Shown here one piece after another: positions 28,771-64,000 of a DNA stretch of 64,000 nucleotides; positions within the stretch are counted from its first letter, which is position 1; every line of letters starts with the position of its first letter. Made by a program: the position numbers and the translations under genes. The stretch lies in contig JABSSW010000030.1 in assembly GCA_018902385.1 (NCBI GenBank), forward strand, positions 496,001 through 560,000, written 5' to 3'. The notes under the pieces were generated by a model. The model saw only the letters and a list, made by a program, of their open reading frames with translations. It searched no databases and was not told the DNA's origin. Source of the stretch: Physcia stellaris. Lineage: Eukaryota > Ascomycota > Lecanoromycetes > Caliciales > Physciaceae.

Positions 28771-30257
28771 ATGACGAGTGATCTGACTTTGTATGAATGC
28801 GTCACGAACTTCGAAGTTTTTCTTATTTTTCGATCATTCTTTCACTTGTTACATCGAAATTGACATCTCGTCGTTTTTTTTACTTTTGAGTAAAATTCAA
28901 AGCGATTCATCAATTAAAAATATTTAATATTATTGATTATTGTCGTTCAAATTCAAATTATTCAATTTGTTGTTATGTTTGATCGTCGACAATTGATCGA
29001 AAAATCAACGACGTGATTATAATATTTATTGCGATTGAATTGTGTCAAAAACACATTTTTCGATATTTTAAACGCGATTTATTAATTCGCGTAAATGTAA
29101 ACAATTTTAACAATTAATTTAATTTGATAATAATATTATTGATTTTATAATACACAATTTTATAAACTCTTTCTATAATAAAATATTCTGTAAATTCGCT
29201 TGACGCGGATGATCGATCGGAAAGAATTTGAGTCAATTCTGATTTCGTATTCGTTAAATTCGATAAATTCAATCAATATTTAATTCACGTTCTCAAATAG
29301 AAAAAGAATTAATCTTCTTTCGATCAATCATCAAATTCGTTTGCGTTCGTACAATTATTTCATCTTTTGCATCGTACATGACAATCGCGTGTTTTTGTCA
29401 TGTATACAGTCAAAGTTGTAAAGCAGAAAGAGCGCAATTCAAAACTGCAAAAATAACGAAAATCGATTCATTATCGCAATAGTTCTGAAACTTTCAAAAC
29501 TTCGTCGCTGCCAAATCTGTGCCAATTCGCCAGTTGAAATGTTTGCGAAAAAGTTTCGTTCAATTTTTCGTTGTCTGTACAGTTGCTTCGCATCTTGCAT
29601 CTCGATCAACAATCACATATGATTTTCATTTAACTACTCAAAATTGTAGAGCTAAATGAGCGCATTTCAACGCTTCAAAAATCATGAAATCGATTCGTTA
29701 TCGCAATAGTTTTGAAGCTTTCAAAATTACATCGTCGAACGTTTCGCTTTTTGAAAATTCAATTTTTTCAAATGTTTGCAACGTTTCGATGCGATTTCGA
29801 TCATAACTCAATGCGCACTCGATCGATTTTCGATATTATTGATTATTTGAATAAAACTCATTTCGAACTTCAAAACGAATCTTCGTTTGTATGTTTTACT
29901 TGTCGAATGCAAATGCTATTAAGATGCGAAATCGCTGAAATCGCAAAGCAATTGCGAAATATCGATTATCAAATTCAAATTTAATTCTGAAGCTTTGCAC
30001 GGAATTTTTTTGAAAAAATTCACGGACAAACTTGTTATTTATAAAAAAAATATTTCATTATTTTTATTTAACTTTTTTGTCGAATCAAAAAATTAATTTT
30101 TTCGAAACAAAAACATCAAATTTTATCGCATTTTTATTTACAATCATTTCGCGTACATACAAATTCATAAAATGATCAAATTGTAAAATTAATCGAACGT
30201 ATTTAAACGTATCAACAATCGCATTAATTCGAACAATATTGAAATTGTTATAAAATT
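28771..30257. repeat. dispersed AT-rich repeat, degraded copy
   Basis: This is the counterpart of the repeat at 968-2230, in the same orientation, up to about 30040 (AAAAATTCACGGACAAACTTGT). It holds two versions of the ATCAATCATCAAA/GTACA unit (about 29325 and 29575). The 30041-30257 part is AT-rich sequence of no known kind, ending where the A- LTR fragment begins. It is more transition-mutated than the left copy. Confidence 0.6.
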
Positions 30258-30391
30258 TATTATGAATCGTGTTTGAATAAACGTATTATTGATTAATTAA
30301 ACGAAAACAATAAATTTGCAAAAACAAATAAATACAAAATAATGAAATTGTAAACAATGTGCGAACGTCAAATTTTAAATCACGTTAATTT
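30258..30391 (-). repeat. A- LTR, 3' part (interrupted by A+)
   Basis: 134 bases equal in reverse complement to the 3' part of the 237-base A LTR. Together with 42961-43063 (103 bases) it makes exactly one 237-base LTR, cut by the insertion of A+. The last five bases, AATTT (30387-30391), are repeated at 42956-42960 as the target-site duplication. Confidence 0.9.
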
Positions 30392-30628
30392 TGTTACGAA
30401 CATGTTTGACAAATAAATTTGACAAATAAATAATTAATATAATAAATGATTAAACAAATGTGTTTAAATCGAATTATATTTTAATTTTTTGACGAAATTA
30501 ACGTGATTTGAAATTTAACGTTCGCACATTGTTTGCAATTTTATCATTTTGTATTTATTTGTTTTTGCAAATTTATTGTTTTCGTTTAATTAATTAATAA
30601 TACGTTTATTCAAACACGATTCATGATA
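30392..30628 (+). repeat. A+ 5' LTR (237 bases)
   Basis: Starts TGTTACGAACATG and ends GATTCATGATA. It equals the 3' LTR at 42719-42955 in length, with few differences. The expected terminal CA reads TA, as transition mutation would leave it. Confidence 0.92.
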
Positions 30629-33600
30629 TTACAATAAATTTTTATTTTTATCGTTCGTCGAAATACGCGAACGTTCAAAAATAAAATTTCAAATCGATCA
30701 AATTTTTTTGACGAAACAAACGACGAAAAATTTTGTTAATCAAACAAACGATTTAAAATTTTTTTTTGACGAAACAACGACGAAATTTTCGACGATAAAA
30801 AACGATAAAACGAACAACAAACAAATTTATTTTTTTTATTTACAATCGTCAATTTTTTATTTTTCGTTATAATTCGAAATCATTATAATTTTTTTTCGTT
30901 TGAAATTTCGTTATTTGAAATTTTTCGTGTCGAAATCGATCGTTATTTGAAACAAATAATCGACAACATCAACGAAAAAAAAATGTTATTTAATTCAAAC
31001 GTCGCAAATTCGTTTTTTCGCGTATAAATATATCGATGAAAAATGACGATATTATTCATTTTTTTGAACGTTATCAACGTCAATCAATTGAAATTTTCGT
31101 GAATTTATCATTTTTGACGAAATTAAAATCATTTTTCAACAAATTTACAATCGACAAACGAATTTCAAAAAAAAAAACGACAACACGTCAATAACGTTTT
31201 AAATTATTTCAATTCAAATTCATTTCGATCGTTTCGATTTCGATATCGTTCACGAAATTTGTTATATTCGTTTTTTTGTGAAATCAACGATTCATTTTTA
31301 TTTCAATGTGAAAATCAAATTTCGTGATTCGATAATTGACAAATTGATCGTCACGAACAAATGTTTTACATGTGACAAATTGAATCACGTTTGAAAAAAA
31401 TGTTCGAACGTTCACAAATATTAAAAACGTCATTGACACAAAATGCAAATATCGTACATGAATTTAATTGTCGAATCGAATAATTTTGATTCGAAAAATT
31501 AACAATTCATATCAAAAACGCAATCGATGAATATTTAAAAAAATTATTTACAATAATAATTTGTTTGATTTTTTCATTAAACGATTTTTAATTATTAATT
31601 GTACGTTATCATTCAACGATAATAAACATAAATTAAAAATTTTAATAAACATTGATGCAATTGATTATGCATTTATTGATAAAAAAATCGCGCAATTTGT
31701 ATGCAACATGTTAAACATAAAATTCGTATTTTTATTAAAATCGAAATCATTGATTGAATTCGACAATCGTCAAATTTTATCAATAATTCATGTTTTATAT
31801 TTTAAATTAACGATAAAATTGCATTTCGAATTGATCGTTTTTTTGTTAATCATCGATTTGAATAATCATTCGATAATTTTAAAAAAATCGTAAATGAACA
31901 AATATAAAATCATATTGAACATAATTTACGATAAATTGATTTTCAAATCGTTTAAATGCAATCATCATGACAATATATTCAATCAAATTGTTCAAATTCG
32001 ACGTTTGAAAATTTTCAAATCAAATCGTCGATAAAATGTATTTAATTGACGTCGTGATATCGTATTATCGCAAAAAAACGATTCAAAACATATAACGATA
32101 ATAAAATTTCGATATATCATTTTGTTTCGTTTCAAAATCGAATTTTTGTTTTTTAGAATTGAAAATAAATCAAATGTATTCGATTCGAAATATTTCGAAT
32201 ATTCAATTTATTCGAACGTCGATAACGATGACGAATCGTCAATTATCGAATTAAATAATTCAAAAATTGATATTACAACAATTACGAAAACGACATTTAT
32301 CAAAAAAAAAAAATTTGAAAAAATAACGCAACAAACGTTAAAAAATCAAAAAACAACAATTCGAAATTTTTTTTTTATCGAAATTGAATTCAAACGATTC
32401 AATGAATATCGCGATAATTAATACATTTTTTTTTTGTTTATTCGTCGATTTCAAAAATAAAAAACAAAAAATGCAATGTTTTTCATCACGATTAATTAAA
32501 TCGATTTCGCGTTCAAAACATTGCGAACAAATTTTGAATCGTTGAAAATTGTTATTATAATCAAAAAAAAATTAAAACACGAACAAATCAAATCGATTTT
32601 TGAACGTATAATGAAAAAAATATTCAATTTTTAAAAAACAATTGAATTGTCATTATATCGATTTTACGATCATAAAATCGAATTTTTAAACGATAACAAT
32701 TCATTGTTTCGAAACAAAATATATTTTTTGTTTGAATTCAAATTTCAAAATTTCAAAAAATATTTGAAAAATAATTTTTAAAATTTTTTTATCGTATTCA
32801 ATCAAATTGCATACGTTTTGTTGATTTTATTTGCAATCAAATCAAACAATTAATTATGTTTGTGTGTAAATTATCGACGATTTAATTACATCACGAAACG
32901 CAATCGATATTTTATTTTTTTAATGAAAATGCAAAATTGCAAATATTTGATCAAATTGAATATTATATCGATTTTCAACAAATTTTGAATGAATGAAAAA
33001 AATAAAAAATTTATTACGTTTGTTATTTTCATGAAATTATACAAATATCGAATATTATTTTTCGAATTGATTAACGAATTCGCGAATTGACAACATTACA
33101 TAAACGATTTGTTATTCAATTTTTTGAACGATTTTTATCAAATTTATTTAAATAATATTTTTATTTACAACAAATTCAAAAAAAAAACATATCATTTACG
33201 TTCGTAAAATATTGAAAAAATTCAAAAAAATCGAATTACAAATGAATATTGAAAAATGCGAATTTTTCAAAAAATAAATAACATTTTTGAACGTCATATT
33301 ATCGATAAATGATTTTCGCATAAATTCGAAAAAAATAAAAATCATTGTCAATTGAAAACGTTTTACGAATTTGAAAAAAATACAAATTTTTCTGAATTTC
33401 ATCAATTTTTACAAACGATTCATTCGTGATTTTTCGAAAAAAATTCGAATTTTCATTCGAATAATCAAAAAATTTGTGAATTTCGAATAAATTAAAAAAA
33501 TCGAAATTTTTTTTAATTTTTTCAAAAAACAATGACGAAAATTTTCATATTACGACATTACGATCGAACAAAACAAATCATTTTGAAAATCGATTTTTTT

Positions 33601-36189
33601 GATTACATCAATGCAAAAATATTATTTCAATATAACGACAAAAAAATATTGTATTTCGTTGTTTTTTACAATTACAACATGATTTCAATCGAATGCAATT
33701 ACGAAATTTATAACAAAAAATTATTAATCATTATTCGTTATTTAAAATATTGACGTTTTGAATTCGAAAATATCGAAAAATCAATCAAAATTTTCATAAC
33801 GTCAAAAAAAATTCATTTTCGTCAAATTCGTTGAACAAATTTTTTTTCGAAATTCAACATTGTTATTCAATTTCAATTCGAAATTCAAAACGTTAAAACA
33901 AATATTTTGATTCGTATGTTTGATTTTCGATTTAAAAACGAAATTGATAAACGATATCAATATCGAAAACAAATATTGTTTATTTCAAAACGATTCGAAA
34001 TTCACGTAATAAAATTTGACGAATTTATTTACGAACGATTTTTGATTATTAATAAAATTGACGATAATTGCACGATATATCGTGAAATTATCAAACAAAA
34101 TTTTACATCAATAAACGAAATCGATTTACGAAATTACAATGAAAAAAACGATATTTTATATCGAAATGATCGATTATAAATATTTGTCGACGTTTTTTTA
34201 TTCGTTAATTTTTTTAAAAAAATTTATGAATTTTCGATTTCGAAACATTCAAATTTTAATTGTATAAAAAAATTTATACGTCGCGATTATTATTAATTCA
34301 ATATGCGCAAATTCGTTCGTCGATACGTACGCAATTGTTATAAATGTTAACGTACGAAAATTTTCAAAAATCGAAAAAATGATTTATTCATTTTTTTGAT
34401 TATTTTTCGCAACGTTGAATCGACATATTTATAAATTTTATTATCGAATTATTTAACGTTCACGATTACAACGTTATTTGCACGATAATCGACAAATTTG
34501 ATAAAAAACGTCATTACGTGTTTTGTATCGTTAACGATAAAAATACAAATACGAAAATCATAATTAAAATATTTATCAATTACGTGTTTTATACGCATGA
34601 ATTATTTTTTTTTTATTGTGACGAGCGTGCATCGAATTCAACATTTGCAGAATTAACATTTTTATTTTATCACATCGAATGACAGAGTCGAAATTCGTCT
34701 TGACGCATTTAAAAATCAAATCTTCTACATATGTTCTCGCAGATTTATTAGATATTTGTTTTTCATTTCGATATTTTCGTGTAATTATGTATTAGTATCA
34801 TATCAATGCATGACACTTCACATTATATCGAAGTCATTCATTTTTTCAGATTGCTCGAGATACGACAATCTATTCAATAAACAAGATTTCAAACTCAATG
34901 CGAAAATCTAAAACGTCATTTTTTTTTTCAAAGTCAAACTGAACAACGAAACTCGATTCTATTCAACGAATCAGCAAAAAAAAATAGAAAACATAATTCG
35001 CTCTAGTGTTGTACAGAACTTTCAAGAAAATGTTTATCGCGAAAGTCGATGTATCAACTCATCGAAAAACGAATTGCAAAAATAATCGTCAAAACAGATT
35101 TATCAATATCAATAGTCGATGTAAAATCGAAAAACGAATTGCAAAAACAGTCGTCAAACAAATTAACATAATCTATTAAACAATAAATCAGATTTGAATC
35201 ATCAAAAACATTATATCAACATCACGTCGAATGACAAAGACAAAAATCAAATCGTTCATCATCAATACTCGAAACATTTTTTTCGTTCGAAAATCAACTC
35301 GAAAACACATCTATTGACTTTCATCAATTCATTTCATTTTTCAATATTTTCGATGAATTCAATATTCGATCAAAAATCGAATCAGAAATTTCGTTATTCG
35401 ATCAACATTTTTCGTTCGAATTTTCATTTTCACGATAGAAACACGAATCATTTATTTTCTTCGAGAATTTTTCAGAATTGTTTCTATTTTACTAGCAATT
35501 CGATCATTTTTTTTTTTTTATTTGTTCGATAGCTTCAATATTCAATTAGAAAATTTCGAAACATTTCGTCAATTTTTCGACGTCGAAACTATTTTATTAT
35601 TTTAAAAATCAACTCGAAAACATATTCATCGATTTATCAATTCAGTGTCATTTTTCTATTTCGATGATAGACTCGTTATTCAGTCAAAAAGTCAATATCA
35701 TTTCGAGTTTAGAAATTTTCAATATTCGCGTTGTCTCAATATCAAGATCATTTATCTTTTTCGAGAATCTTGTCAAAACATATTTGTCTTTTTTACAAAT
35801 CGATCATACTCTTTGATTTAAACGATAGTTTCAGTATAGATTTCAAAAATCGCTCGAATTTTTATCAGCATTTGATATTGCAATCATTTTTTTTTTTTCG
35901 AAAATTTTTCGATATTTTTTTTATTTATTTAACGAATCAGCATTTGTTTTCTGTCTCGATGTTGAATTCAATATCAAATTTTCGAAATTTTGCATCGAAG
36001 ATCATTATATCAGAAACATCAAAAATTTTCTAAAACGTTTTTTTTCAGCATTCGATATTCACATCATTTTTTTTGTTTGAAAACATTTCAGAATCACATT
36101 TGTTTATCTAGCAAATCGATATTGATTTTCAGTTTCTGAAATGACTTTAATGTTTCAACATATGAATATTTTTTATTCAGAATTCATTT

Positions 36190-39170
36190 TTGAAGATTCG
36201 AATGCTAGATTTTTCAATGAAGTCGAAAATTTTCTGCAACATTTTCAACAATGTCGAAATCAATATTCGAAATCAAATATGTTCGAATGATTATCAACAT
36301 GTTTCGAAAAATTTGCTTTCGAATGATTTAACGATCAATCGAAATTTACTTTCTTGTATGAGTTTGATATAGTTTTGACGAATGCATTTTTCTTCAAACA
36401 AATCAACAATTCGTTTTTTTCAATTTTTGCATCAGAATCAACATGCGAAATTTTCGAAAATTTAACAGTTTCGACTTTGATCGCTTCAATTGTTTCGCAA
36501 AAACAACAAATTTCAAAACGTTGTCAATGATGTCAATCAAATTACGAGAATTATTATTCGCATCGTCTTCAATATTTTTCATGTAATGTTCGAAATCAAC
36601 AAGCATACGAATCAGTTTTGCAATTTCTTGAAAAGAAAATCTGCGAAACTTTCGAAAATTTAACAGCTTTTGTTGTGATTATTTCGTTTGTTTCGTTTGT
36701 TTCGTTTGTTTCGTCTGTTTCGTTTGTTTCGTTTGTTTTGTCTGCTTCGTCTGCTTCGCTTGCTCAACAGAAATCAAATGTTCTGAAGATCGCGAAGAAA
36801 ATTAAATTCAACGCAATCAAGAATGCTAAACGAGTCAAGTCAAAAGCATTGAAAGTAAAACAAGTCGCAAAATCAACATCAATTGTTCAAAATGTCGATA
36901 TTTTCGATTCAATTTTCACATGTGAAGATCGACGATTTAGCGACTTCGCGAAGTTTTTGCAACATTTTCAACATTGTCATCATTTATATCGAAAATCAAA
37001 TTTGTTCATGTTGTTGTTCATTTGTTTTTGAAATTCTGTTTTCGATATTTGATTCGATAAACAAACAATCATGAACTCAACATCATTAAATGAATGAATT
37101 GATATTTTACGAGTCGATTTCGCGAATGTTTCATTTGCAAAAATCAAAATTGCAAATATGATTTGCATGCGTTGCGATTCAAATTTCAATTTCAAGAAAA
37201 AGTTTCGCGAGCACGTGCGCGAGCAACATGCAAAAAAATCGTTCAATCGTTCGTTTTTTTCAATCGATACAGTCAAATCAATATGCGAAATCAAAAAGAA
37301 ATCATTCATCATTCTCGTTGAATCATTGATTTTCGTCATTTTCAGAAATCATATATCAGATACAGAAACATCTTTGATTTCGTCAAGATGTTCGAGTTTT
37401 CAGTTACATGCATTCAATTTTGCATCAAAATCGATGAAGAACGCATCAAATCAAAAAAAAATTTTTTCGAGTGATTTGCAAAGTTTTGCAAACAAAATTT
37501 CAATTTCAACAAGAAATTACACGAGCATATTCGCGATCATGAAGCTTTGAAAATCGTCAAAGATTTTCATTTCTCGATCAATGCAATCAATTTAATACGT
37601 GAAGCAATGAAGATGTCGATAATTGCATGTTCGTTTGTTTCGCAAAAACTCGATATTTCTATTGCAACATCAAGACAAAAATTCGAGTTTGTCATGATTT
37701 TCGAAATCGTCATTGCATTCGAAACTGTATCAAAATCGACAAAAAACACGTCAACTCAGTGTTCATTTATTTCGTCGAGATCATCGTTTTTCAAACGATC
37801 GAATCAGAATCTCAAGAAATCTTTGTTTGAAAATTTTCAAAATTCTGTTCATCTTTCTTAATCGATACAGTCAAGTCAATATGTGAAAACAAAGAGAATT
37901 CAGTTGTTATTTGTTCGTCTGCTTCGTCTGTTTCGCAAATATCATTTATTTTCTTTTCAGTTTTCAAGAAACGTTGTTACAGATGTCGAATCAATGTTTT
38001 GTCAATTCAAAAGCATTATTTCGAATCTTATTCGTTTAATGAAGCATTACGTCATCGATTAAAACAACAATTCGCTCGTCGTGCACATCAACAAGAACAA
38101 AAGATTCAGAAGCAAACAGAAATTGAAAAAATTATTAGTCGATCAATTTCATCAGTTTGTTTGAATTTTTCGATTGCGACATTCGAAATCAAGTCGAAAT
38201 CAACGAAAAAATCAGCAACATGTCGACGTTGCAACAAGATATTCAATTTTAATAACAAATTTCACAAGCATATACGCGAACATTATGCTCGAAAGTTCGT
38301 CAAAAACTTGAATTTTCGAGTTTTCACATCAGAATTTACATACAAAATCATTGAGAAGTCAGCAAACATTCGTTTGTTTGTTTTGTTTATTTCGCAAAAA
38401 TCATTTATTTTTTTTGCAACATCAAGAAGTCAGAAATTCTGACTTTCAACAATTTTCGAATCAGTCATCGTATCGACGCGTTCGAATTTCTCGATTGCAT
38501 CATACAAAATCAGTTCAAAGTCGATGAAAAACGCAATCGTCAATTGTTCATTTCTTTTTTCATTTATTTTATCGTATACATCAGTTCGAAAACATCAAAA
38601 ATTTCATATTCAGAAATTTTATCTGATTATGAATGATTTGCATCGCATGTTTGTTGAAAAATTTGCATCATTTGATTTTGCAACAGCATCAAAATCGTTG
38701 TCGTTTTTCGCAAAAATTTGATTTTCGTCAATTCGATCGATCACGTTCAATTTCGTCAAAAAAATTTTATTTCACGATCGAAAATTTGTTCGAAATGTTC
38801 GATGAAAATTCAGAAAAAAAGTCTGTTTCAGAATCAAAATAGCGTTTCTTTTCAAAGATTCTTCTCAAAACAGTCGCAAATGACTGTTTATTTCAAATTT
38901 ACAATCAGTCAGAAATCGTCGATTATTCAGAATTCGAAAAATTCAAAATCGAAAAGTTTGAATCAACACATGTTTGCGAAATCAATTTGCATTGTTTTCA
39001 GCAATAACTTGTTTGAAAAATCGATCAAATTATCGTACAAAATGTTCGATGTTTTTTGCGTCGATTCAAAAATTTTTTTTCATTTTTATATTTTTTCGTT
39101 TTTTTTCGATTTTTTTTCTTGTTTTCGCATTCGTTTCGATCATGTTCGTTGCAAAAATGAGTTGTATTAG
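36190..39170 (+). mobile_element. B+ internal region: Gag-like block and C2H2 fingers
   Basis: Two related Gag-like stretches (FLQHFQHCHHLYRKSN near 36950 and a cousin near 36235) are followed by C2H2-type fingers: CMRCDSNFNFKKKFREH near 37165 and CRRCNKIFNFNNKFHKH near 38220. Further related stretches lie down to 39170. The Cys and His spacing (C-x2-C-x12-H) is kept in both visible fingers. From memory, similar Gag-like plus finger proteins are scattered in repeat-rich ascomycete genomes. It is a fossil and is given only as parts. Confidence 0.65.
36673..36740 (+). repeat. TTTCGTTTG microsatellite
   Basis: A tandem run of a GTTTCGTTT-type nine-base unit inside the B+ internal region; in one frame it would encode Ser-Phe-Val repeats. 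It is absent from the part of B- that survives. Confidence 0.8.
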
Positions 39171-39289
39171 CGTTTATCAACAAGTCATTTCGATCATTGA
39201 TCGTGTCAATATTGAATTAGTCGTTTCGAGACGAAATTGAAAAAAAACGAAAAATAAAATGTTCGAATATTCAATCACGAAACATTTTC

Positions 39290-40960
39290 ATAAAAAATGT
39301 TTTGCTTACACGTTTTATTGAATGAATCGTACACATCGATTATCGCATGCGTTCAAATATCGATGCGTTAATCGTTGTTACACGAATTTTGCTAATACAA
39401 TGAAGTTGTTTGTCTCATGATATAATCGATTTATGATTTTCAAAAATTCTCAAGAACGTTGACGTGTTTGCTTACTAATGATCGTCGAAATTACTCGTAA
39501 AAAATTGTATGAACTGATCATCTTTCAGAAAATTCATTACATTCACGTTTTGTTGAATGCAATGTACACATCAATTTTCGCATATGCGTAAATATCAATA
39601 TCGTAAACGCTGTTGCGAAAATTCTATCAACACGACGAATTGCTCGTCTCATCGTATAATCGATTTGATATCGATTCAGAGCGAATAGAAATTACATCAT
39701 GAACATATCGTTTATTATTTCGTTTATTTTTTTTCGACATTAAGTTTTCTACTCGAAGATTTAATCAATTATCATTTCAATAATTTCGATTTCAAATATT
39801 TCGCGTTGATTTACAAACGTTATCAAAATATCGATATTTTTATTCACATCGAAAATCTGATAGAAGCGAATCGCTATCTTGATTAGAAATTCAAAACGTT
39901 GAACAATTTTTTCCTCTCGATCAATCTGTTTTAAGATTTTGAGTTTCAGATATTTTCAAATGATTTATCATATCATTTATTCGCAGATATCATGATTCAT
40001 GTTTTCGCAATCAGATTTCGAACAGAAATTCGAAAACGTTTAAATCTTTTTTTCTGTGTATTAATTATTAATGAGTTTTCGATGCATGTTCAGAAATTTG
40101 CAAAAGAAAACGTGTTTTCATCATACGAAATGACGCGATATTTTTGCATATTTTAATTGTTTTAATAATTTTTTCACATTTCGATTCAATCGCAAATTTT
40201 TTGAGAAATTTTCATGTTCTGAAATTTGCAAAAGTTATTTCAGTCATTTTCGTCGTTTTCGTCGTTTTCGTCGATTTCATTTCGAATTCTTGTACGTTTT
40301 CAAGATTGTCGCGTTCGTTGTGAATTTTAACATTTAAAAACAAGTCATCAAGATCACGTATTTTGTCGATCGATGAAAAAAATAATAACAATAAATTAAT
40401 CGTTTCAAAACAAAGTTAAAATGATTTTGATGTTTGAAATCAATCAAAAAACATCGCATCAATTTCAAATTCGTTACACATTCATTTTCATGTTGAGTTA
40501 TAATGATTTTTTTTTTTTTTCAATTTTTTATTCGATGTTATCGTTTTTGCGTTATTTACAATCAGAATTTACGACGCATGAAGAGTTGAATCGTGTCAAA
40601 AACATTTTCAAAAATTGTTGTTCGATTTTATTGAATTATGAAAAAATAACAAGCTGAAAAATAACAATAAATGCAAATAAACAACAAGATGTTTGAAATT
40701 CGAATGCATACAAATTGATCAACAAGATTTTCAACAAGATTTTCAATTGTTTATTAATGATCGACGAAGTTGCTTTTACAATTCGTACGAACTAGTTGTC
40801 TTTCAGAAGATTTATTACACGCACGTTTTTTTGAATGAATTGTACATTCAATCATTGCATTTTGAATTCAAACATCGATGTTTTATTCATGATTGCAAAA
40901 ATTCTGCTAACATGTTCAGATTGTTTATTTCAAGATATAATCATATGAGTTTTTCAAATG
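39290..40960 (+). repeat. three related units in the 3' part of B+
   Basis: Units of about 150 bases at 39290-39440, 39520-39690 and 40800-40960 share a stretch like ACACGTTTT.TTGAATGAAT followed by one near 'atcgatg' and 'aattttgct'. The minus copy shows the first unit at about 51130-50940. Between them lies an AAATTGAATCGTGTC-type segment (about 40580) that also occurs in A+ (about 42510), A- (about 43250) and near 54250. Confidence 0.55.
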
Positions 40961-42718
40961 TTTTGACGAATCGATTTCGCAAACGAAATTCATTTCGCGA
41001 CGTTTCTTTCGATCAATTTTTTTTTTGTTTCGACGATCAATCAATTCAACGTCAATCAACAGCATATTTACATCGCGCAAAACGTTCGATTGATGAAAAA
41101 GAAAAAATCAATTAATCGTTTCGAAACGAAATTGAAAAAAAACGAAAAATAATGTGACGAACGTGCATCGAATTTAACATTTGACAAAATTAACATTTTT
41201 ATCTTATCACATCGAATGACAAAATCGAAATTCGTTTTGACGCATTCAAAAAATCAAATTTTCTACATATGTTTTCGCAAATTTATTAGATATTTGCTTT
41301 TCATTTCGATATTTTCGTGTAATTATATATTAATATCATATCAATGCATGACATTTTACATTTATAACGTTAAATCGAAAATTTCAATTTATATTTTTTA
41401 TTTGACAAACATTTTGCAAAATTTTCGACATTAAATATAAATTTTTTATTGTTTTTTATTCAAAAATCGACGAACAAATCGAAAAAATTAATCAAAATAT
41501 CGAAAAACAATTGCGACAATATTGCAATTACATGCAAAACGATTAAAACGTTTAATTGTTTATAATCGAATTTGTAAACAATAACGCAATATTTGCAACA
41601 ACAAAATTATTATCATTTTTTATCAATAAAAATTTTCATTTTCGTGTAAATTTTTTATTAAATTTTATTTCGTATATTACAACGAAAAAACGATTTTTGA
41701 TTATCAAAACAAAAAATATTATTAACATAATGCAAAATATTTTCAATTATGTACAAAATTATGCAAAAATAATTCAAAAACGTATAACAATTTAAATTAA
41801 TAAATATCAAAAAATCGTGAAATATATCGAAAAAAATTTCGTTTTTTTTGAATCGACGAAACATCAAAACGATTAAATCATTTAACAAATTTGATAACAA
41901 AAAATTAAATTTATACAAAATGTTAAAACGTAAAAACAATTTTTATCAATTCGAATTGTCAAAAATTATACGAATTTATAATATGTTTCATTGTTGATTT
42001 TTTCGCAAAAATTTTCGTAATTTTTTTGAAAATCAAATTAATGAATTTTTCGATTTCGTAATAATCAACGAAAATTTCGAATAAAAAATAAACGATATTT
42101 TAAAATTTCGTTATTATTATAATTGTTTTCAATATCGTGTCAATTAATCAAATTGATTTTATATAATCGAACGTGATATTATATCAACAACGAAAAATTC
42201 GATAATGTTCGCGATATAATAAACGATTTTTATCGTAATTATTTCACGACAATAAATTTAAAATCGTTCAAAATATTGATTTCAATATTTCAAATCGTCG
42301 TTAACGAATTAAATGTTTTAATGAATTATCGTTGTTTTCAAAAAAAATCGTCATGTTAACATTAATCGAAATTATTTTCGATTAACATTTAACATCATTA
42401 ATTCGATTTTCATTCATTTGTTTTTGATTTCACGATTTTTATTCAACAATTCAAATTTTATTATTTTTTCGATATTATTTACAATTCAAAATTTATATCG
42501 CATGAAAAATTGAATCGTGTCAAAAATATTTTCAAAAATTGTCGTCAAATTTTATTGAACGTTAAAATGACAATAAAATATTAAAAAATGAAAATTGATA
42601 ATCGTGAAATTTCAAAATTTTGCAATTATACAATTTGATTAACAAAATTTTCAACAAAATTTTTCAATTTCAAAACAACAACGAATCGTCGAAACGACGT
42701 TCGCGAAAAAAAAAATAA

Positions 42719-42955
42719 TGTTACGAACATGTTTGACAAATAAATTTGACAAATAAATAATTGATATAATAAATGATTAAACAAATATGTTTAAATCGAA
42801 TTATGTTTTAATTTTTTGACGAAATTAACGTGATTTGAAATTTAACGTTTGCACATTGTTTGCAATTTCATCATTTTGTATTTATTTATTTTTGCAAATT
42901 TATTGTTTTCGTTTAATTAATCAATAATACGTTTATTCAAACACGATTCATGATA
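42719..42955 (+). repeat. A+ 3' LTR (237 bases)
   Basis: Near-identical to 30392-30628 and followed by the AATTT duplication at 42956-42960. Confidence 0.92.
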
Positions 42956-45900
42956 AATTTCGTCAAAAAATTAAAACATAATTCAATTCAAACATATTTG
43001 TTTAATCATTTATCATATCAATTATTTATTTGTCAAATTTATTTGTCAAACATGTTCGTAACATTTTTTTTTTCGCGAACATAGTTTCGACGATTTGTTG
43101 TTGTTTCGAAATTTGAAAACGTTGTTGAAAATTTCGTTAATTAAATTGTACGATTACAAAATTCAAACATTTCACGATCATTATTTTTCATTTTTTGATA
43201 TTTTATTGTCATTTCAACGTTCGATAAAATTTGACGACAATTTTTGAAAATATTTTTGACACGATTCAATTTTTTATGCAATGTATATTTTGATTGTAAA
43301 TAACATCGAAATGATAATAAAATTTGAAATATTGAATAAAAATCGTGAAATCAAAAACAAATAAATAAAAATCGAATTTGTGACGTCAAATGTTAATCGA
43401 AAATAATTTTTATTAATGTTAATATAACGATTTTTTTTCGAAAACGACGATAATTCGTTGAAAAATTTGATTCGTCAATGACGATTTGAAATATTAAAAT
43501 CGACGTTTTAAACGATTTTGAATTTATTGTTATAAAATAATTATAATAAAAATCGTTTATCATATCGCGAATATTATTAAATTTTTTGTTGTCGACGTAA
43601 TATCACGTTCGATTATAAAATTAATTTGATCAATTAACATAATATTGAAAACGATTGTAATAATATCGAAATTTCAAAATATCGTTTATTTTTCATTCGA
43701 AATTTTCGTTAATTATAACGAAATCGAAAAATTTATTGATTTGATTTTCGAAAAAATTACGAAAATTTTTACGAAAAAATTAACAATAAAACACATCGTA
43801 AATTCGTATAATTTTTGACAATTCGAATCGATAAAAATTGTTTTTACGTTTTAATATTTTGTACGAATTTAATTTTTTGTTATCAAATTTGTCAAATGAT
43901 TTGATCGTTTTAATGTTTCGTCGATTTAAAAAAACGAAATTTTTTTCGACATATTTCACGATTTTTCGATATTTGTTGATTTGAATTATTATAAATTTTT
44001 GAATTATTTTTGCATAATTTCGTACATAATTGAAAATATTTTGTATCGTGTCGATAATATTTTTTGTTTTAATAATTAAAAATCGTTTTTTCGTTGTAAC
44101 ATACGAAATAAAATTTAATAAAAAATTTATACGAAAATAAAAATTTTTATTAATAAAAAATGATAATAATTTTGTTATTGCAAATATCGCGTTGTTATTT
44201 ACAAATTCGATTATAAATAATTAAATATTTTAATCGTTTTGCATGTAATTGCAATATTATCGCAATTGTTTTTCGATATTTTAATTGATTTTTTCGATTT
44301 GTTTATCGATTTTTGAATGAAAAACGATAAAAAATTTATATTTGATGTCGAAAATTTTGCAAAATATTTATTAAACGAATGATATAAATTGAAATTTTCG
44401 ATTTAACGTTATAAAAAAAATAATTCATGCGTACGAAACACGTAATTGATAAATATTTTAATTATGATTTTCGCATTTGTATTTTTATCGTCGACGATGC
44501 AAAACACGTAATGACGTTTTTTATTAAATTTGTCGATTATCGTACAAATAACGTTGTGATCGTAAACATCGAATAATTCAATAATAAAATTTATAAATAT
44601 GTCGATTTAACGTTGCAAAAAAATAATCAAAAAAATGAACAAATCATTTTTTCGATTTTTGAAAATTTTCGTACGTTAATATTTATAATAATTACGTACG
44701 TATCGACGAACGAATTTGCGCATATTGAATCAATAATAATCGCGATATATAAAATTTTTTATACAATTAAAATTTGAATGTTTCGAAATCGAAAATTTAT
44801 AAATTTTTTTGAAAAAATTAACGAATAAAAAAACGTCGACAAACATTTATAATCGATCATTTCGATACAAAACATCGTTTTTTTCATTGTAATTTCGTAA
44901 ATCGATTTCGTTTATTAATGTAAAATTTTGTTCGATAATTTCACGATATATCGTGCAATTATCGTTAATTTTATTGATAATCAAAATTCGTTCGTAAATA
45001 AATTTGTCAAATTTTATCGCGTGAATTTCGAATCGTTTCGAAATAAACAATATTTGTTTTCGATATTGATGTTATTCATTAATTTCGTTTTTGAATCGAA
45101 AATCAAATATACGAATCAAAATATTTGTTTTAATGTTTTGAATTTCGAATTGAAATTGAATAATAATGTTGAATTTCGAAAAAAATTCTGTTCAACGAAT
45201 TTGATGAAAAATGAATTTTTTTGACGTTATGAAAATTTTCAATTTTTTGTAATCGATAAAAGTTTTGATCGATTTTTTGATATTTTCAAATTCAAAACAT
45301 CAATGTTTTAAACAACGAATAATGATTAATAATTTTTTGTTATAAATTTCATAATTGCATTCGATTGAAATCATGTTACGATTGTAAAAAATAACGAAAT
45401 GCAATATTTTTTCGTCGTTATATTGAAATAATATTTTTGCATTAACGTAATCAAAAAAATCGATTTTCAAAATGATTTGTTTTGTTCGATCGTAATGTCG
45501 TAATATAAAAATTTTCGTCATTGTTTTTTTGAAAAAAATGAAAATTTTTTCGATTTTTTCAATTCATTCGAAATTAACAAATTTTTTGATTATTCGAATG
45601 AAAATTCGAATTTTTTTCGAAAAATCACGAATGAATCGTTTGTAAAAATTGACGAAATTCACGAAAATTTGTATTTTTTTCAAATTCGTAAAACGTTTTC
45701 AATTGACAATGATTTTTATTTTTTTCGAATTTATGCGAAAATTATTTATCGATAATATAACGTTCAAAAATGTCATTTTTTTTTGAAAAATTCGCATTTT
45801 TCAATATTCATTTGCAATTCGATTTTTTTGAATTTTTTCAACATTTTACGAACGTGAACGATGTTTTTTTTTTTAATTTGTTATAAATGAAAATATCATT

Positions 45901-48900
45901 TAAATAAATTTGACAAAAATCGTTTAAAAAATTGAACAACAAATCGTTTATGTAATGTTGTCAATTCGCGAATTCGTTAATCAATTCGAAAAATAATATT
46001 CGATATTTGTACAATTTTAAGAAAATAACGAACGTGATAAATTTTTCATTTTTTTCATTCATTCGAAATTTGTTGAAAATCGATATAATATTTAATTTGA
46101 TCAAATATTTGCAATTTTGCATTTTGATTAAAATTTTTTCGAACAAAAAAATGAAATATCGATTGCGTTTCGTGATATAATTAAATCGTCAATAATTCAC
46201 ACACAAACGTAATTGATCGTTTAATTTGATTGCAAATAAAACGAACGAAATTTATGCAATTTGATTGAATACAATAAAAATTTTTTAAAAATTAATTTTC
46301 AAATATTTTTTGAATTTTTGAAATTTGAATTCGAATAAAAAATATATTTTGTTTCGAAACAATGAATTGTTATCGTTTAAAAATTCGATTTTGTGATCGT
46401 AAAATCGATACGATGACAATTCAATTGTTTTTTGAAAATCGAATATTTTTGACAAATGTTTGAAATATTTGAATATTTTTTTCATTATATGTTCAAAAAT
46501 CGATTTGATTTGTTCGTGTTTTAAATTTTTTTTTATTATGACAATAATTTTCAACGATTTAAAATTTGTTCGCAATGTTTTGAACGCGAAATCAATTTAA
46601 TTGATCGTAATGAAAAAACATTGCATTTTTTGTTTTTTATTTTTGAAATCGACAAATAAATAAAAAAAAATTGCATTAATTATCGCGATATTCATTGAAT
46701 CGTTTGAATTCAATTTCGATAATGAAAAAATTTCGAATTGTTGTTTTTTGATTTTTCAACGTTTATTGCGTTGTTTTTTCAATTTTTTTTTTTGATAAAT
46801 GTCGTTTTCGTAATTGTTGTGATTTTAATTATTAAATTATTTGATTTGATAATTGACGATTCGTTATCGTTATCGACGTTCGAATGAATTCAACATTCGA
46901 AACATTTCGAATCGAATACATTTGATTCATTTTCAATTAAAAAAAAACAAAAATTTGATTTTGAAACGAAACAAAATAATATATCGAAATTTTATTATCG
47001 TTATATGTTTCGAATCGTTTTTTTGCGATAATACGATATCACGACGTCAATTAAATACATTTTATCGACGATTTGATATGAAAATTTTCAAACATCGAAT
47101 TTGAACAATTTGATTGAATATATTGTCATAATAATTACATTTAAACGATTTAAAAATCAATTTATCGTAAATTATGTTTAATATGATTTCATGTTTGTTT
47201 ATTCACGATTTTTTAAAATTATCGAATGATTATTCAAATCGATAATTAACAAAAAAACAATCAATTCGAAATGCAATTTTATCGTTAATTTAAAATATAT
47301 GACATAAATTATTGATAAAATTTGACGATCGTCGAATTCAATCAATGATTTCGATTTCAATAAAAATACGAATTTGATGTTCAACATGTTGCATACAAAT
47401 TGCGCGATTTTTTTATCAATGAATGCATAATTAATTGCATCAATGTTTATTAAAATTTTTAATTTATGTTTTTATCGTTGAATGATAACGTACAATTAAT
47501 GATTAAAAATCGTTTGATGAAAAAATCAAACAAATCATCATTATGAATAAATTTTTTTTTAAATATTTATCAATCGCGTTTTTGATATGAATTGTTAATT
47601 TTTCGAATCAAAATCATTCGATTCGACAATTAAATTCATATACGATATTTGCATTTTGTGTCAATAACGTTTTTAATGTTTGTGAACGTTCGAATATTTT
47701 TTTCAAACGTAATTCAATTCGTCACATGTGAAACATTTGTTCGTGACGATTAATTTGTCAATTATCGAATCACGAAATTTGATTTTTATATTGAAATAAA
47801 AATGAATCGTTAATTTTACAAAAAAAACGAATGTAACAAATTGCGTGAACGATATCGAAATCGAAACGATAAAAATAAATTTAAATTGAAACAATTCAAA
47901 ACGTAATTGACGTATTGTCGTTTTTTTTTTTGAAATTCGTTTGTCGATTGTAAATTTGTTGAAAAATAATTTTAATTTTGTCAAAAATGATAAATTCACG
48001 AAAATACACATTCACAGTTTTTTTCAAATTTCAAAATATTTTTTTCATTAATTTTTCAATTTTAATAATTTCGTTATAATTTGTTGAATTATTGAAACGA
48101 AAAAAAATAAAATAAAACGATTAAAAATTTTGAATATTCATGATCGATGTTCGAAATTGATTACGCATGTTACGTTTGAAATTAAAATCGTCGTAAATAT
48201 TTGACAAAAATTTCAACATTATAAATAAATTTTTAAAATGATTGAAATCGATATCACGTATCGATTGAATGTAATCGTCAATTTCGTCGATAATTCAATC
48301 AATAACAAAAATAACGACGAACAAATTCGTATTGTAATAATCGTTATTGATCGTCATTTTATTATGCATTTTCGTTTTTCATACACGTCAAATGAAATTC
48401 ATTTCATCGATAAACGTGAATAAATCAAAATGTTTAATAAAACGATATTTTTTTGAAACGTTGAAAACAAACGCATTGTCGTCATTGTTGTTTTCACGTT
48501 TTTTTTCGTTGATCGATAAAATTTGATATTTCAATTTCAACGTGTCGTATTTGTTTTGAAAAATGTTATAAATTGCATCGTTTTGAATTTTCAATAAACG
48601 TTTTTTCGTTAATTCGAAATTATTTTTGCGAATTTGTTGATGTTGTTTTGAAATTCATTCGCAAATTTTTGATATTGATTAAAAATTTTCAAATAAATGT
48701 TTCGATTCGAACGCAAAACATCGAAATTTTTGCAAAAATTTGACGAATGATTTTCGATTCATCATTTTGTAAAAAATAAAAATTAAAATTTTCGAAAATA
48801 AATAATTTTTTATTTCAAACAATTCGATTATCGAAATTCGAATAATTTCGAAAAAATCAATTTCAATCATTTTATAATTCGATTCAACGATTTTTCAAAA
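42956..48900 (-). mobile_element. A-: Ty3/gypsy chromovirus-like element (fossil), minus strand
   Basis: The older copy, read right to left. A Gag start region is at about 48870-48390 (motif IKHFDLFTF, degraded from a Pro-rich family motif), with a CCHC knuckle at about 47720 (CFTCDELNYV), protease about 47460-47190, reverse transcriptase about 46600-45530 (CKYLIKLNIISIFNKFRM, YKYRILFF), RNase H 45521-45300 and integrase about 45080-44150. The 3' LTR piece is 42961-43063 and its remainder 30258-30391. It is not interrupted by B. No 5' LTR was found: homology ends near 48900. It has many breaks and is the oldest of the nested set. Confidence 0.85.
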
Positions 48901-50124
48901 ATTTCGAACGCAAAAATTGTCAATCGAAATCGATCGAATTCGTACGATTGAATAAATAAAATATGAAAAAAATCAATTGTAAAAAAAAAACGTAATTTGT
49001 TTTGTAACGATTAATAAATCAATATATTACATTTCAAAAACATTTCGTTGTTTGATGTCAATAATTCATTAAACTATATTATTTCTAATACGAATTTTAC
49101 AATATTTCAATGAAACGATTTTGAAAAATTGAAAATCAAAACATACGTAAATAAAAAATTCAAAATTATTCTCGACAATGAATTTGCAAAAAAAATCGAA
49201 AACGATATAAAATCGACTAAATTTTGAGAAAAAAATGCAATTAAATAATTGTTACGTCGTTTAATTTCGAAATTTCGAACAGTCAATTGATTTTTTCGTC
49301 GAATTAACAAATCAAGAAATCAAAAAAATTTCAAAAAAATCTTAAATCGTTCGATGACAAAGATTCGAAAAACTGTTAAACGTTTCGCAAAAAAATAAAT
49401 CATTTATTATACAAATTTTGTTCAAAAAACGTTTTTTTAAAAAAATGCGAATCGAAACAAATCGAATCAATTGAAAAAATCTTTCAATAAAATGTTTAAA
49501 AAATTCTGTCAATTTATTAGTTCGAAACAAATTTATATTTTTGAAAGTTCGTTTCAAATCAAATCGACAAAAACGAAATTTTCGAAACAATTGAAATTGA
49601 TTCGAATTTTGCAAATTTAAACATTTTCGCAAATGATTTTGCAAATGTTTTCATTTTTGATTTTTTTATCAACAATTTCGTTGAATGAAATCAATTGACG
49701 TAAAACATGTTGATTCGAAAATCGCAAAAATTTCATCAATGAATAAAAATCGAAATGATCGAAATGATCGTCGCAATCTCAACGATTCTTGAAAAAGTTT
49801 TGAAACAGCAATTGGTGAAAAAACAAACTGTTTTCGAATTTTTTATTTGTATTATTAATAGATTTCTCGAAAAACGAATCGTCGTTTTCAATAAAAACAA
49901 CGAAAACGTTTGAATTTTTCGTTCGATGATCATTTGTTACGATAAAATCTTCACATAAAACTGAAGTCAAAATATCTTGATCAGAAAAAATTAACGTTTT
50001 CGCAAAATCTCGATACGAATTCATATTCTGTTTTCTGTCTTTTAGATAATAACAATTTAATCATTTTATTTCTTATATTATGCATATTGCGATTATTTCA
50101 TAACATTAACGTCGAAACAAAAAA
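48901..50124. other. unassigned AT-rich stretch between A- and B-
   Basis: It keeps several minus-strand open stretches (49107-49310, 49342-49644, 49779-50024) with Ser- and Asn-rich, basic translations and no motif that I know. It is less degraded around 49800-50050. It may be part of A-, part of B- or a third element. Confidence 0.4.
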
Positions 50125-53100
50125 TTGTAAAAGAATTATAAAAATGAATGTATCACGAATTTAATTTGACGTGATGTTTTTTGATTGATTACATACATTA
50201 AAATCATTTAAGTTTCGTTTCGAAAAACTTAATTTATTGCTTTTTTTTCTTTTATCGATCGACAAAGTACGTGATCTTGATAACTTGTTCGTAAATGTGT
50301 AAAATTCATAACGAACGCGACAATCATGAAATCGTACAAAAGTTTGAAATGAAAACGACGAAAACGACGAATTTTTTTTTAAAAATTATGCGATTTTGTA
50401 TTGCGAAAATCGTTTAAAAATTGAAACAAAATGCGATGTTCATTAATAATTAATACAAATACAAAATAAAAAAAAAATGAAAACGTTTTCGAATTCAAAT
50501 TCGAAATTTGACAAAGCGAAACATGATTCAAAATATTCGCGAATAAATGACAAATGATAAAATAATTTGAAAATATTTGACATTTGAAAATTTCGAAACA
50601 AATTGATCGAAACGAGAAAATTGTTCAATGTTTTGAATTTTTGATCACGATAACGATTCGCTTTTATCAAATTTTCGATGTGAATAAAAATATCTGTATT
50701 TTGATGACGAATGCAAATTTATGCGAAATATTTGAAATCGAAATCATTGCAATTGATAAAGATATTGATTTATAATCAATTTGCAAAAAATGTAAACGAT
50801 GACGTAAATGATAAAATAAACAAACAATCGAAAATTTGCTTTTTCAAAATTTAATAGATAATTTAAAGTGTAAAGATTCGAAAATTCGAACTTTTGAATA
50901 TAATGAAAACATTAATATAAACGTTGAATTTTTGCAATTTCAAATCGATTATACGATGAAACGAACAATTTCGTCATGTTAATAGAATCAACGCAACAAC
51001 GATTAACGTATCGATATTTACGCACATGCGATAATTGATATATCGTTGCATTTAACAAAACTTGTATGTAATAGATTTTTTTTTTGAAAATGTTTCGTAT
51101 TAATATAAACGTTTTATTTTTATTTTTTTTTTCAATTTCGTTTCAAAACAACAAAATCGTTATTTCGTATTTTTGAATACAATCAAAATCGAAACGATTT
51201 GTTCGTAAACGTTAATGCAATTCATTTTTGTAATTGAAACGATCGAAACGAATGCGAAAACAAAAAAAAATCGAAAAAAAACGAAAAAATATGAAAATGA
51301 AAAAAGAAATTTCGACAAAAAATTTCAAATTGATGCAAAAAATATTCGACATTTCGTATGATAAATTGATTAATTTTTCAAACAAATTTTGATTAAAAAC
51401 AACGTTAATTGATTTCGCAAACATATGTTGATTCAAATTTTTCAATTTTGAATTTTTTGAATTTTGATTAATCGACGATTTTTGAATGATTGTCAATTTG
51501 AAATAAATCGTCATTTGCGATTGTTTTGAGAAAAATTCTCGAAAAAAAACGTTATTTTGATTTGAAAACAAATTTTTTTTTTGAAATTTTTCATCGAACA
51601 TTTCGAACAGATTTTTGATCGTGAAATAAAATTTTTTTGAAAAAATTGAACGTGATCGATCGAATTGACGAAAATCAAAACTTTGCGAAAAACGACAACG
51701 ATTTTGATGTTGTTGCAAATCAAATGATGTAAATTTTTCAACAAACATGCGATGCAAATCATTTATAATCAAATAAAATTTTTGAATGTGAAATTTTTGA
51801 TGTTTTCGAATTAATGTATACGATGAAATAAATGAAAAAATGAATAAACAATTGACGATTGCGCTTTTCATCGATTTTGAATTGATTTTGTATAATGCAA
51901 TCGAGAAATTCGAACGCGTCGATGCGATAACTAATTCGAAAATTGTTGAAAATCAAAATTTTTAATTTTTTGATGTTGCAAAAAAAATAAATGTTTTTCG
52001 CGAAATAAACAAAACAAACAAACGAATGTTTGCTGATTTCTCAATGATTTTGTATGTGAATTTTGATGCGAAAATTCGAAAATTTAAATTTTTGACGAAT
52101 TTTCGAACATAATGTTCGCATATATGCTTGTAAAATTTGTTATTGAAATTGAATATTTTGTTGCAACGTCGACATGTTATTGATTTTTTCGTTGATTTCG
52201 ATTTAATTTCGAATGTCGCAATCAAAAAATTCAAACAAATTGATAAAATTGATCGACTAATAATTTTTTCAATTTCTGTTTGTTTTTGAGTTTTTTGTTT
52301 TTGTTGATATGCACGACGAACGAATTGTTATTTTAATCGATGACGTAATGTTTTATCAAACAAATGAAATTCGAAATAATATTTTTGAATTGACAAAATA
52401 TTAATTCGACATTTGTAACAACGCATTTTGAAAATTGAAAAATAAATAAATAATATTTACGAAACAAACGAAACAAACAAACAAATAACAATTGAATTTT
52501 TTTTGTTTTCACATATTGATTTGACTGTATCGATTGAGAAAAATGAACAAAATTCTGAAAATTTTCAAATAGAAATTTTTTGAAATTCTGATTCGATCGT
52601 TTGAAAAAACGATGATTTCGACGAAATAAATAAACATTAAATTGACGTGTTTTTTGTCGATTTTGATACAATTTCGAATGCAATAAATGAAAAATGTGAA
52701 TTGTTTGATGTAATGACGATTTCGAAAATTATGACAAATTCGAATTTTTGTTTTGATGTTGCAATAAAAATATCGAATTTATGCGAAACAAATAAACATA
52801 CAATTATCGACATTTTCATTGTTTCACATATTAAATTGATTACATTGATCGAAAAATGAAAATTTTTGACAATTTTCAAAATTTTATAATTGCGAATATA
52901 TTCGTGTAATTTTTTGTTGAAATTGAAATTCTGTTTGCAAAGTTTGCAAATCATTTAAACGCATATAATTTTTTGATTTGATATGTTTTTCATCGATTTT
53001 GATACAAAATTGAATGCATGTAATTGAAAATTCGAACATTTTGACGAAACAAATTGCAAAAATGATTCTGTATCTGATATATAATTTTTGAAAATGACAA

Positions 53101-62061: not shown

Positions 62062-62153
62062 CTTTTATTGTGTAAAAACATGATTTGTGTATATAAAATT
62101 TAATCACGTAATTTGCGTTTAGACATTATCTCGTCAACGTTTTGATTTTTACA
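62062..62153 (+). repeat. C LTR, 3' part of a split copy
   Basis: 92 bases from CTTTTATTGTGTAAAAAC to TTTTTACA, matching the last 92 bases of the intact C LTR without length change. Confidence 0.8.
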
Positions 62154-62644
62154 TTGAAAATTGAAATAAAAATGAAAATTTCGAAAAAATCACAAAAAAA
62201 AACATGCGTATATCAATAACGTTCGTAAACGATTTTTGAATTACTATCGAAATCATTATGATAACAAAATATATGACGATTTTCAAAACGTTATTTTTCA
62301 ATCGTTCAATATAAAAATAATGCATCAAAATAATGCATCAAAATTCAATTTAACAAAACAATAAATTTTTTTTATTAATTCGATTTTGCGATCAAATCGA
62401 AAATCGAAACAATCACAAAACGAAATCGAACGTTATTTCTCTATATCAATCATGAAAAAAAATTTTAATTGACAATATTGAAACGATAACGTTTCGAATT
62501 TTTCTCGATTAATTCAAATGACGAAAAATATTTTGTTTTGTTTTGTTTCATCGATAAAAATGAAACGAATTTTCAATTTGACACGTCGAATTTGTAAATA
62601 TGATCGAACAATGTTGAATCAAAAAACGATCGAAAAAACGATTA
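62154..62644. other. AT-rich spacer, unassigned
   Basis: About 490 bases between two C LTR ends that face each other. Neither side continues as the reverse complement of the other. No coding signal. Confidence 0.4.
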
Positions 62645-63045
62645 TGTAAAAATCAAAACGCTGACGAAATAATGCTTAAACGCAAACTACGTGACTAAAT
62701 CTTATATACACAAATCATGTTTTTACACAATAAAAGTGTAAAGCATTCAGAATTCAGATCAGCAAAACATTGCGAACCGAATTTCGATAAAATTATATCA
62801 AGCAATTCGATCATCGAAATTCGATAAATCACGAAGACGATCAGTTTGATCACGTCAACATCAAATTTTCGATTGAATTCAACAAGTTCATATTTTCGAA
62901 TAAATTTCGAAATGTGTGTACGATTGAACAAATTGACTGATTATATGAACAAAAATTTGAAAAATAATTAGCTTTGCAATTATTAATTTAGTCATACAAT
63001 CGTCTTTGCTATACATTTCTGATGTCACATTTCTTGAGTTTTACA
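62645..63045 (-). repeat. C LTR, intact copy (401 bases)
   Basis: Read on the minus strand it begins TGTAAAACTC and ends TTTTTACA, so it has TG..CA ends with a seven-base inverted terminus (TGTAAAA/TTTTACA) and a TATATAA string inside. The flanks (GATTA and TTTTA) do not form a duplication. It could be a solo LTR or one end of a larger element; the internal part is not identified. Confidence 0.7.
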
Positions 63046-63534
63046 TTTTAATAATTATCATAATCAATAGATTAGCATCATTCGTGTATACAGCATGTTT
63101 ACATTTTTCATCAATATCATTAGTATTTTCACGAATTTTGAGAATGAATTCATTTTGAATTCATCAAAATTCGATGTCATCATGAAAAATATCGAGCGTA
63201 TATTCAACAACAGCATGTTCGAATGAAAGCATTACAACGTGCATTTGTATTTTCGATCGTTCAAATTTCTGTTTTTAAAAAGAAATCGTTTTACATCAAA
63301 ATAATGAAAAACAAATCAAAATTATTCGTTGAAAATAATTATAAAAAATGAATTCAATACGTTTGAAAAATGAAAAATCAATTCGACATGAATCAAGTGA
63401 ACGATTACGTCAAAAATTTTGACAAAATTAAGCTTTTTTTGCTGTAATCTTTTTGAAAAGAAAATTTATCGCACAATTATTTTGAAGCGTTAAAGTCAAA
63501 AACAATTCGAAAGTCAATTACATTTGAAAGAAAT

Positions 63535-64000
63535 ATGTCGATTTTTTTAAAAAAAATACTAAAGAAATTTTCACTAGAAAAAAATAATTTCGAAAAATAT
63601 AAAAATTATAAACAGCAAATCAATCAAACAATAAAAAATTACGATGCACATCGCATCGTTTTGTTTTCGAATTTACATGAATTTATGAAATTTTCATCAG
63701 CAATAAAATTACAAAATTTCGTATTGAATTTAATTCAAAATAATCAGAATTTTTTGATCGAACAAAAAATTGAAAACGACAAAAAAATAATTTTGAAACG
63801 TCTCAAATAACGAGAAAATTTTCAACGCAAAAAACAACGCAATGTCAATCAAAACAAATTTGATAACGATTTTAACAAACGCAAAAAAAATGAAAATAAT
63901 TTCGATGAAAACGAAAACAACAATCGACGAAAAATCGAAAAAATGATAAAAAATTCAAATTCGATAATTTTAATCGTGAATCAATCAAATTCAAAAAATT
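63535..64000 (+). mobile_element. Gag-like fragment at the right edge (fossil)
   Basis: An open stretch with a helical, Gag-type look (INQTIKNYDAHRIVLFSNLH, then LQNFVLNLIQNNQNF), followed by a highly basic, Asn-rich part that runs off the window. The layout suggests the Gag of an LTR element that continues to the right. The family is undecided and it may be the internal part of element C. Confidence 0.45.

Follow-up and report, generated by a model that had tools for sequence, protein, structure and literature searches.

Preferential loss of CpC and CpT from repeats of Physcia stellaris suggests RIP-like mutation in which the 3' context is inverted

The processes most readily compared with the one considered here are the RIP systems of filamentous fungi. 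According to the available part of PMC5496416, the dinucleotides attacked by RIP in N. crassa rank CpA > CpT > CpG > CpC; for T. reesei the ranking is CpA ~ CpG, CpT > CpC. The original prediction for the DNA analysed here set a C-before-pyrimidine context against this Neurospora pattern. The contrast stands for the published order but is softened by alignment-based analyses, which report CpT as dominant in some fungi of the CpA type: in the sections available, CpT changes run ahead of CpA changes in Neurospora Tad1 and some S. nodorum repeats are high in CpT (PMC2621366), and CpT/ApG changes dominate when RIP-capable control fungi are scored by alignment (PMC7882544). In M. oryzae and B. cinerea T4, too, CpT is described as the predominant target, CpA taking second place (PMC4352252). 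RIP of rRNA is placed mostly at CpA, with CpT higher in N. crassa (PMC5555474), and methylation by Neurospora DIM-2 mostly at non-CG sites with a preference for CpT (PMC13297926).

Other contexts have also been described. SNP spacing in R. solani AG8 is shortest for CpC (214 bp), followed by CpG (370), CpA (422) and CpT (491), a bias which the paper's text terms CpG and which hits genes besides repeats (PMC4014442, as far as available). Monilinia combines classical CpA RIP with CpC-to-TpT double mutations (PMC8959702, in part). The 'CPC' of PMC5602860 is a strain code in the portion at hand, and CpA or CpT terms are absent from the main text of PMC11969663. Within the literature searched, which held few subscription papers, CpC-first mutation with CpA spared was not found, the nearest case being the AG8 spacing table in the accessible text.

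Here we analyse a 64,000-nucleotide stretch of the Physcia stellaris genome at C30:496001-560000, referred to as the window, together with related sequences from the rest of the assembly (43.97 Mb, 147 contigs; a single genome was examined).

Composition of the AT-rich block

The window falls into two parts of different composition:

1..28500, unstranded: gene-rich control DNA with ordinary dinucleotides and kinase, cyclin, MFS and alpha/beta-hydrolase frames.
28801..64000, unstranded: CpY-depleted AT-rich block, GC about 0.24, with 10 CC+GG in 35.2 kb and CpA and CpG mostly retained, by dinucleotide counts.

Over 28800-64000 (35,201 bases), CC and GG occur five times each (observed/expected ratio, O/E, 0.01 for either), CT 338 times (O/E 0.20) and AG 354 times (O/E 0.23), against 2147 CA (O/E 1.32), 1960 TG (O/E 1.22) and 1881 CG (O/E 3.61); in the control, all seven dinucleotides range from 0.92 to 1.10 (CC 0.93, CT 1.09, CA 1.06, CG 0.92). 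Expressed per kb on both strands, 29401-64000 keeps 87% of the CpA of 1-28500 (58.5 vs 67.4) and 98% of its CpG (53.3 vs 54.4), CpT falling from 66.1 to 9.7 and CpC from 56.0 to 0.1. The loss of CpY from the block is confirmed as real and strong, and by the same dinucleotide counts the genes of 1-28500 are unaffected by it. Within this gene-rich part, the bin 1001-2000 has a GC of 0.39 and a CC O/E of 0.47.

The original prediction started from five 60-base rows counted by eye, and its figures were exact (35 C, of which 22 precede G, 13 precede A and none precedes C or T). Its statement that AG and GG are missing held in all five rows, but TpG is kept in four of them and is absent from the row at 31201. 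The full comparison of the block with 1-28500 gave what had been expected, CpT and CpC lying far below CpA and CpG in O/E, and a depletion of CpA as strong as that of CpT, which had been named as contrary evidence, is not seen. CpG depletion, the mark of CpG hypermutation in Basidiomycota, is absent both from the block and from the conserved positions of a mutated rRNA copy (0/18; see below), and CpG decay is ruled out by the retained CpG.

When every CpY and RpG of 1-28500 is converted in silico, the control reaches a GC of 0.244 (0.243 in 29401-64000) and also comes near the block values for CpG, ApA, ApT, GpA, ApC and GpC. This model misses TpA, predicting 46.7 per kb where 29401-64000 has 66.4, and overstates CpA (67.4 per kb vs 58.5). 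The original prediction had also allowed for classical RIP at CpA with a second process coming later, and AT-rich repeats and RIP-type genes do exist here. However, in-silico conversion of CpA would give 181 TpA per kb, against the 66 seen, CpA is little touched (58.5 vs 67.4 per kb) and TpA/ApT is 0.48; this sequence of events did not hold up, and we regard it as very improbable.

The standard RIP indices over 28800-64000 are TA/AT = 0.48 and (CA+TG)/(AC+GT) = 1.43. Survey cut-offs for RIP are a product index >1.15 and a substrate index <=0.75 (PMC7882544, available part). Among 69 one-kb intervals scanned across 29001-64000 with a step of 500, none passes either cut-off and none has a composite index above 0, the highest product index being 0.70 and the lowest substrate index 1.00. 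The usual indices had been expected to be negative or weak here, and so they are: strongly mutated repeats of the CpY type escape standard RIP tests. RIP surveys rely on indices of CpA loss, and RIP may therefore be under-counted in other genomes.

Seventeen 10-kb stretches, taken at round coordinates on nine large contigs, provided 170 bins of 1 kb from the genome at large. Mean values per kb were CpC 0.0, CpT 1.8, CpA 60.5 and CpG 44.0 in the three bins with GC <0.25; CpC 0.3, CpT 13.9, CpA 62.4 and CpG 61.2 in the nine bins with GC 0.25-0.30; and CpC 65.4, CpT 66.5, CpA 68.2 and CpG 57.0 in the 103 bins with GC >=0.48. CpC was at most 1.0 per kb in all 12 sampled AT-rich bins (GC below 0.30), and two of the eight bins with GC 0.30-0.36 had more than 10 CpC per kb.

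Within the block, the depletion is uneven:

42001..49000, unstranded: saturated stretch with 0 CC+GG and 5 CT+AG in 7 kb.
28801..29099, unstranded: block edge, CpY-depleted by composition, with 0 CC+GG and 9 CT+AG in 299 bases.

The younger stretch 34501-40500 holds 1 CC+GG and 307 CT+AG, in keeping with the suggestion that younger DNA keeps more CpT and ApG than the saturated stretch; since CC and GG are almost gone there with so many CT and AG still present, CpC is lost before CpT. Depletion starts near 28801; the earliest start among other genomic copies is 29100, most of them beginning near 29161. No second copy of 28801-29099 was found in the genome, and this segment, which adjoins a repeat, may reflect a leak from its neighbour or an old remnant. 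The same bias in unique AT-rich DNA had been named as further contrary evidence, and what bears on it here is this one segment beside a repeat.

Mutation spectra of repeat and rRNA copies

Copies of three dispersed repeat families lie in the block:

37787..38678, plus strand: family B copy, intermediate stage, with 0 CpC and 30.8 CpT per kb (copy alignment).
51717..52608, minus strand: family B copy, late stage, with 0 CpC and 7.8 CpT per kb (copy alignment).
29161..29898, plus strand: copy of dispersed repeat family D, with 45 match rows in the genome including itself (13-copy alignment).
46801..47400, plus strand: saturated family A copy with 43 match rows, of which 39 others are near full-length and 89-95% identical and the rest short.

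Family B has 69 match rows, many of them partial; the best 10 of the 69 were aligned (the two in the window plus L042-L049), and nine were scored against L049, the least mutated copy (GC 0.434). The ten copies form a graded series down to a GC of 0.240, with CpA (66-76 per kb) and CpG (44-54 per kb) steady throughout, as a progressive process would have it. Tabulated by 3' neighbour, in the way the original prediction had proposed, C-to-T changes affect 343/385 CpC and 675/1020 CpT sites, as opposed to 96/1146 CpA and 77/862 CpG sites. C>T or G>A accounts for 1191 of the 1317 differences from L049, the reverse change for 80 and transversions for 46. The alignments thus establish the direction of change, its 3' context, the order of the contexts and the progressive nature of the series.

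The order is already visible in L047, the lightest copy, with changes at 27/43 CpC, 33/112 CpT, 5/129 CpA and 9/95 CpG; the few CpA changes at this stage further argue against an initial round of classical RIP. Estimated as -ln(1-f), the CpC rate is 2.8 times that of CpT in L047 and 1.5-3.4 times in the other copies, most of which are close to saturation at CpC. Sparing of CpA is relative: the lightest copy has lost 5/129, the most heavily mutated copies 15/128-20/129. The base at +2 has a modest effect on CpT (CTG 160/286, CTA 59/72; cells not independent).

Three observations on individual family B copies may be added. L048 (GC 0.256) has 5.1 CpC per kb despite mutation of 40 of its 41 comparable CpC sites; CpT loss is greater on the plus than on the minus strand in the window copy 37787-38678 (40/55 vs 25/59), L042 and L044; and a 203-aa open frame at 37831-38442 of the window gives a below-cut-off match to PF23808 (DUF7181).

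The neighbours of the mutated cytosine also bear on its chemistry. CpC and CpT are both dipyrimidines, as UV-type damage would demand, but TpC is a dipyrimidine as well and is mostly spared before A or G (TCA 56/511, TCG 32/396 mutated), and restriction to AT-rich stretches would be unexpected under UV; such damage is scarcely credible as the cause. The strong C-to-T bias on both strands would also suit a cytidine deaminase of the APOBEC/AID kind that works on single-stranded DNA. Known members of this family select their targets by the 5' neighbour. Here the 3' neighbour decides, the 5' neighbour being without effect on CpT mutation (p = 0.82, for cells that are not independent because copies share history), which makes this explanation very doubtful. 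The PF08210 profile found no match in the genome and none in the controls either, and is hence uninformative; deamination by another enzyme would need a 3'-neighbour preference.

The most serious rival to a repeat-directed mutator is slow, ordinary deamination of cytosines methylated at CpY by a DIM-2-like mark. It draws support from the mostly non-CG, CpT-preferring methylation described for Neurospora DIM-2 in the available text of PMC13297926, and from a DIM-2 relative in this genome. Nevertheless, 343/385 CpC sites in family B have changed against 46 transversions over about 8000 aligned sites, roughly a 380-fold difference per site. An excess of this order is probably greater than the decay of 5-methylcytosine would give; it argues against passive decay, which we consider unlikely, though less so than the rivals above.

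Family D repeats the order seen in family B. Twelve copies drawn from along the match list plus the window copy were aligned, with L053 (GC 0.428) as reference, and the pooled C-to-T counts for the 12 scored copies are CpC 476/613, CpT 553/945, CpA 136/1112 and CpG 152/1054. The CpA and CpG counts also contain ordinary divergence, each copy carrying 23-87 transversions. For the three copies closest to L053, the mutated fractions are 0.81-0.96 for CpC, 0.41-0.79 for CpT, 0.07-0.12 for CpA and 0.02-0.06 for CpG. Family A is both saturated and diverged (4376 transversion vs 6888 transition differences in pairwise comparison); it is too diverged to display, on its own, the C-to-T excess of B and D, and was left out of the rates.

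The same depletion extends beyond these three families to one rRNA copy. At locus L033 on contig C41, a mutated rRNA copy comprises parts of LSU (1-1339), 5.8S (1501-1654) and part of SSU (2306-3154); its 5.8S, at C41:45899-46052 and flanked by LSU and SSU matches, was the sole 5.8S match returned, with 39 of 2644 candidates scored. Intact rDNA was not found in the assembly: the 5.8S search gave this one match among the candidates scored, and a degenerate LSU pattern gave one, the mutated copy. Rfam consensus positions were therefore used as the ancestral state, and in L033 the count covered the 5.8S match together with LSU model positions 1-453. At capital-letter positions of these models, C-to-T changes affect 13/14 CpC and 9/23 CpT, with 0/15 CpA and 0/18 CpG; over all 5.8S positions, where the consensus represents this fungus less reliably, they affect 13/15 CpC, 8/12 CpT, 0/21 CpA and 5/26 CpG. 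With the rRNA copy so mutated, a 5S search that scored 47 of 1658 candidates returned eight genes of about 108-120 bp, all of which keep CC and GG; for these, selection on working genes is an alternative to the escape of short repeats.

Methyltransferase genes and proposed mechanism

A PF00145 profile search gave four matches, read as three genes. The frame at L014 3969-7325 (minus strand; 1118 aa) matches chain 9bap with E 4.6e-188. We take this chain to be Neurospora DIM-2, a DIM-2 cryo-EM structure being mentioned in a review, and on this match we take the frame to encode a DIM-2-type methyltransferase. The frames at L013 2900-4111 and L015 5253-7703 (minus strand) are 39% identical over the catalytic part and seem to continue past introns. 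Presumably they are RID-like, a label that follows sequence motifs and the mutual similarity of the two; they look like two RID-like methyltransferase genes, old paralogues with target domains that may differ.

We consider it probable that the dispersed repeats of this fungus are mutated by a RIP-like mechanism that is directed at repeats, turns C into T and has its 3' context inverted. Cytosines would be converted to T on both strands wherever a pyrimidine stands 3' of the C, CpC being hit first, CpT at a rate two to three times lower, and CpA and CpG rarely. The process would act premeiotically on paired duplicates, and a RID-like enzyme, DIM-2 or both, with a changed target preference, may do the mutating. 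The contrast of CpC and CpT with CpA and CpG, together with the three methyltransferase genes, offers a handle on the sequence preference of RIP and on its mutating enzyme.

Such a context has consequences for coding sequence. By the code, CAA, CAG and CGA survive CpY mutation and a single-step stop arises only from TGG (to TGA), so that repeats would be rewritten mainly by missense. In the one frame inspected, which spans 172 aa in L049, all nine other copies have TGA in place of the only TGG, and CAA or CAG has become a stop 3 times out of 99 (gapped codons included in the total). We lean, by a small measure, towards the broader reading that a retargeted RID paralogue, or else DIM-2, has inverted RIP from CpR to CpY in a lineage of filamentous fungi, and that this RIP acts mainly by missense on genomes which CpA-based surveys would call RIP-free.

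Comparison with known systems

Taken broadly, RIP denotes C:G to T:A changes concentrated in repeats, and these are found here, with 1191 of 1317 differences in family B and the same order in family D; the expected gene complement, a RID- and/or DIM-2-type methyltransferase, is represented by one DIM-2-type and two RID-like open frames. Classical RIP has CpA as its main target and gives high product and low substrate indices, neither of which applies: CpA is changed at 96/1146 sites vs 343/385 for CpC in family B and at 0/15 in the rRNA copy, and none of the 69 intervals has such indices. The prediction of RIP-like mutation aimed unusually at CpT/CpC is borne out by the alignments of B and D and by the mutated rRNA copy, and on sequence grounds the process would best be classed as RIP-like with a new type of target rather than as classical RIP. 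Against this reading, most RIP described so far does the opposite of sparing CpA, the sparing is not absolute, TpA exceeds the model, and the block edge, for which no second copy was found, is depleted.

Shared with classical Neurospora RIP are the C:G to T:A changes on both strands, the dispersed repeats as targets, the progressive course and the resulting AT-rich blocks, as well as the presence of DIM-2-type and RID-like genes, with the unmutated short 5S genes as a possible further parallel. Unlike RIP in N. crassa and T. reesei, where CpC comes last in the available account (PMC5496416), the order here is CpC > CpT >> CpA, CpG. The RIP of Magnaporthe, Botrytis and Sclerotinia has the CpT target in common with Physcia stellaris; however, CpA also belongs to its signature and no CpC signature is given in the accessible part of PMC4352252, whereas here CpC leads and CpA is spared. 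Basidiomycota hypermutation at CpG or TpCpG resembles the present case as C-to-T change in a non-CpA context, but CpG is called the target there and AG8 genes are also hit (PMC4014442, as far as available), whereas the present block retains its CpG and the mutation leaves the genes of 1-28500 untouched. Neurospora DIM-2, a relative of which is present here, methylates in a CpT-leaning non-CG context (PMC13297926, in part), but the outcome there is methylation and here it is mutation, with CpC preferred. The odd features of Physcia stellaris are accordingly the lead of CpC and the sparing of CpA, the CpT target being already known.
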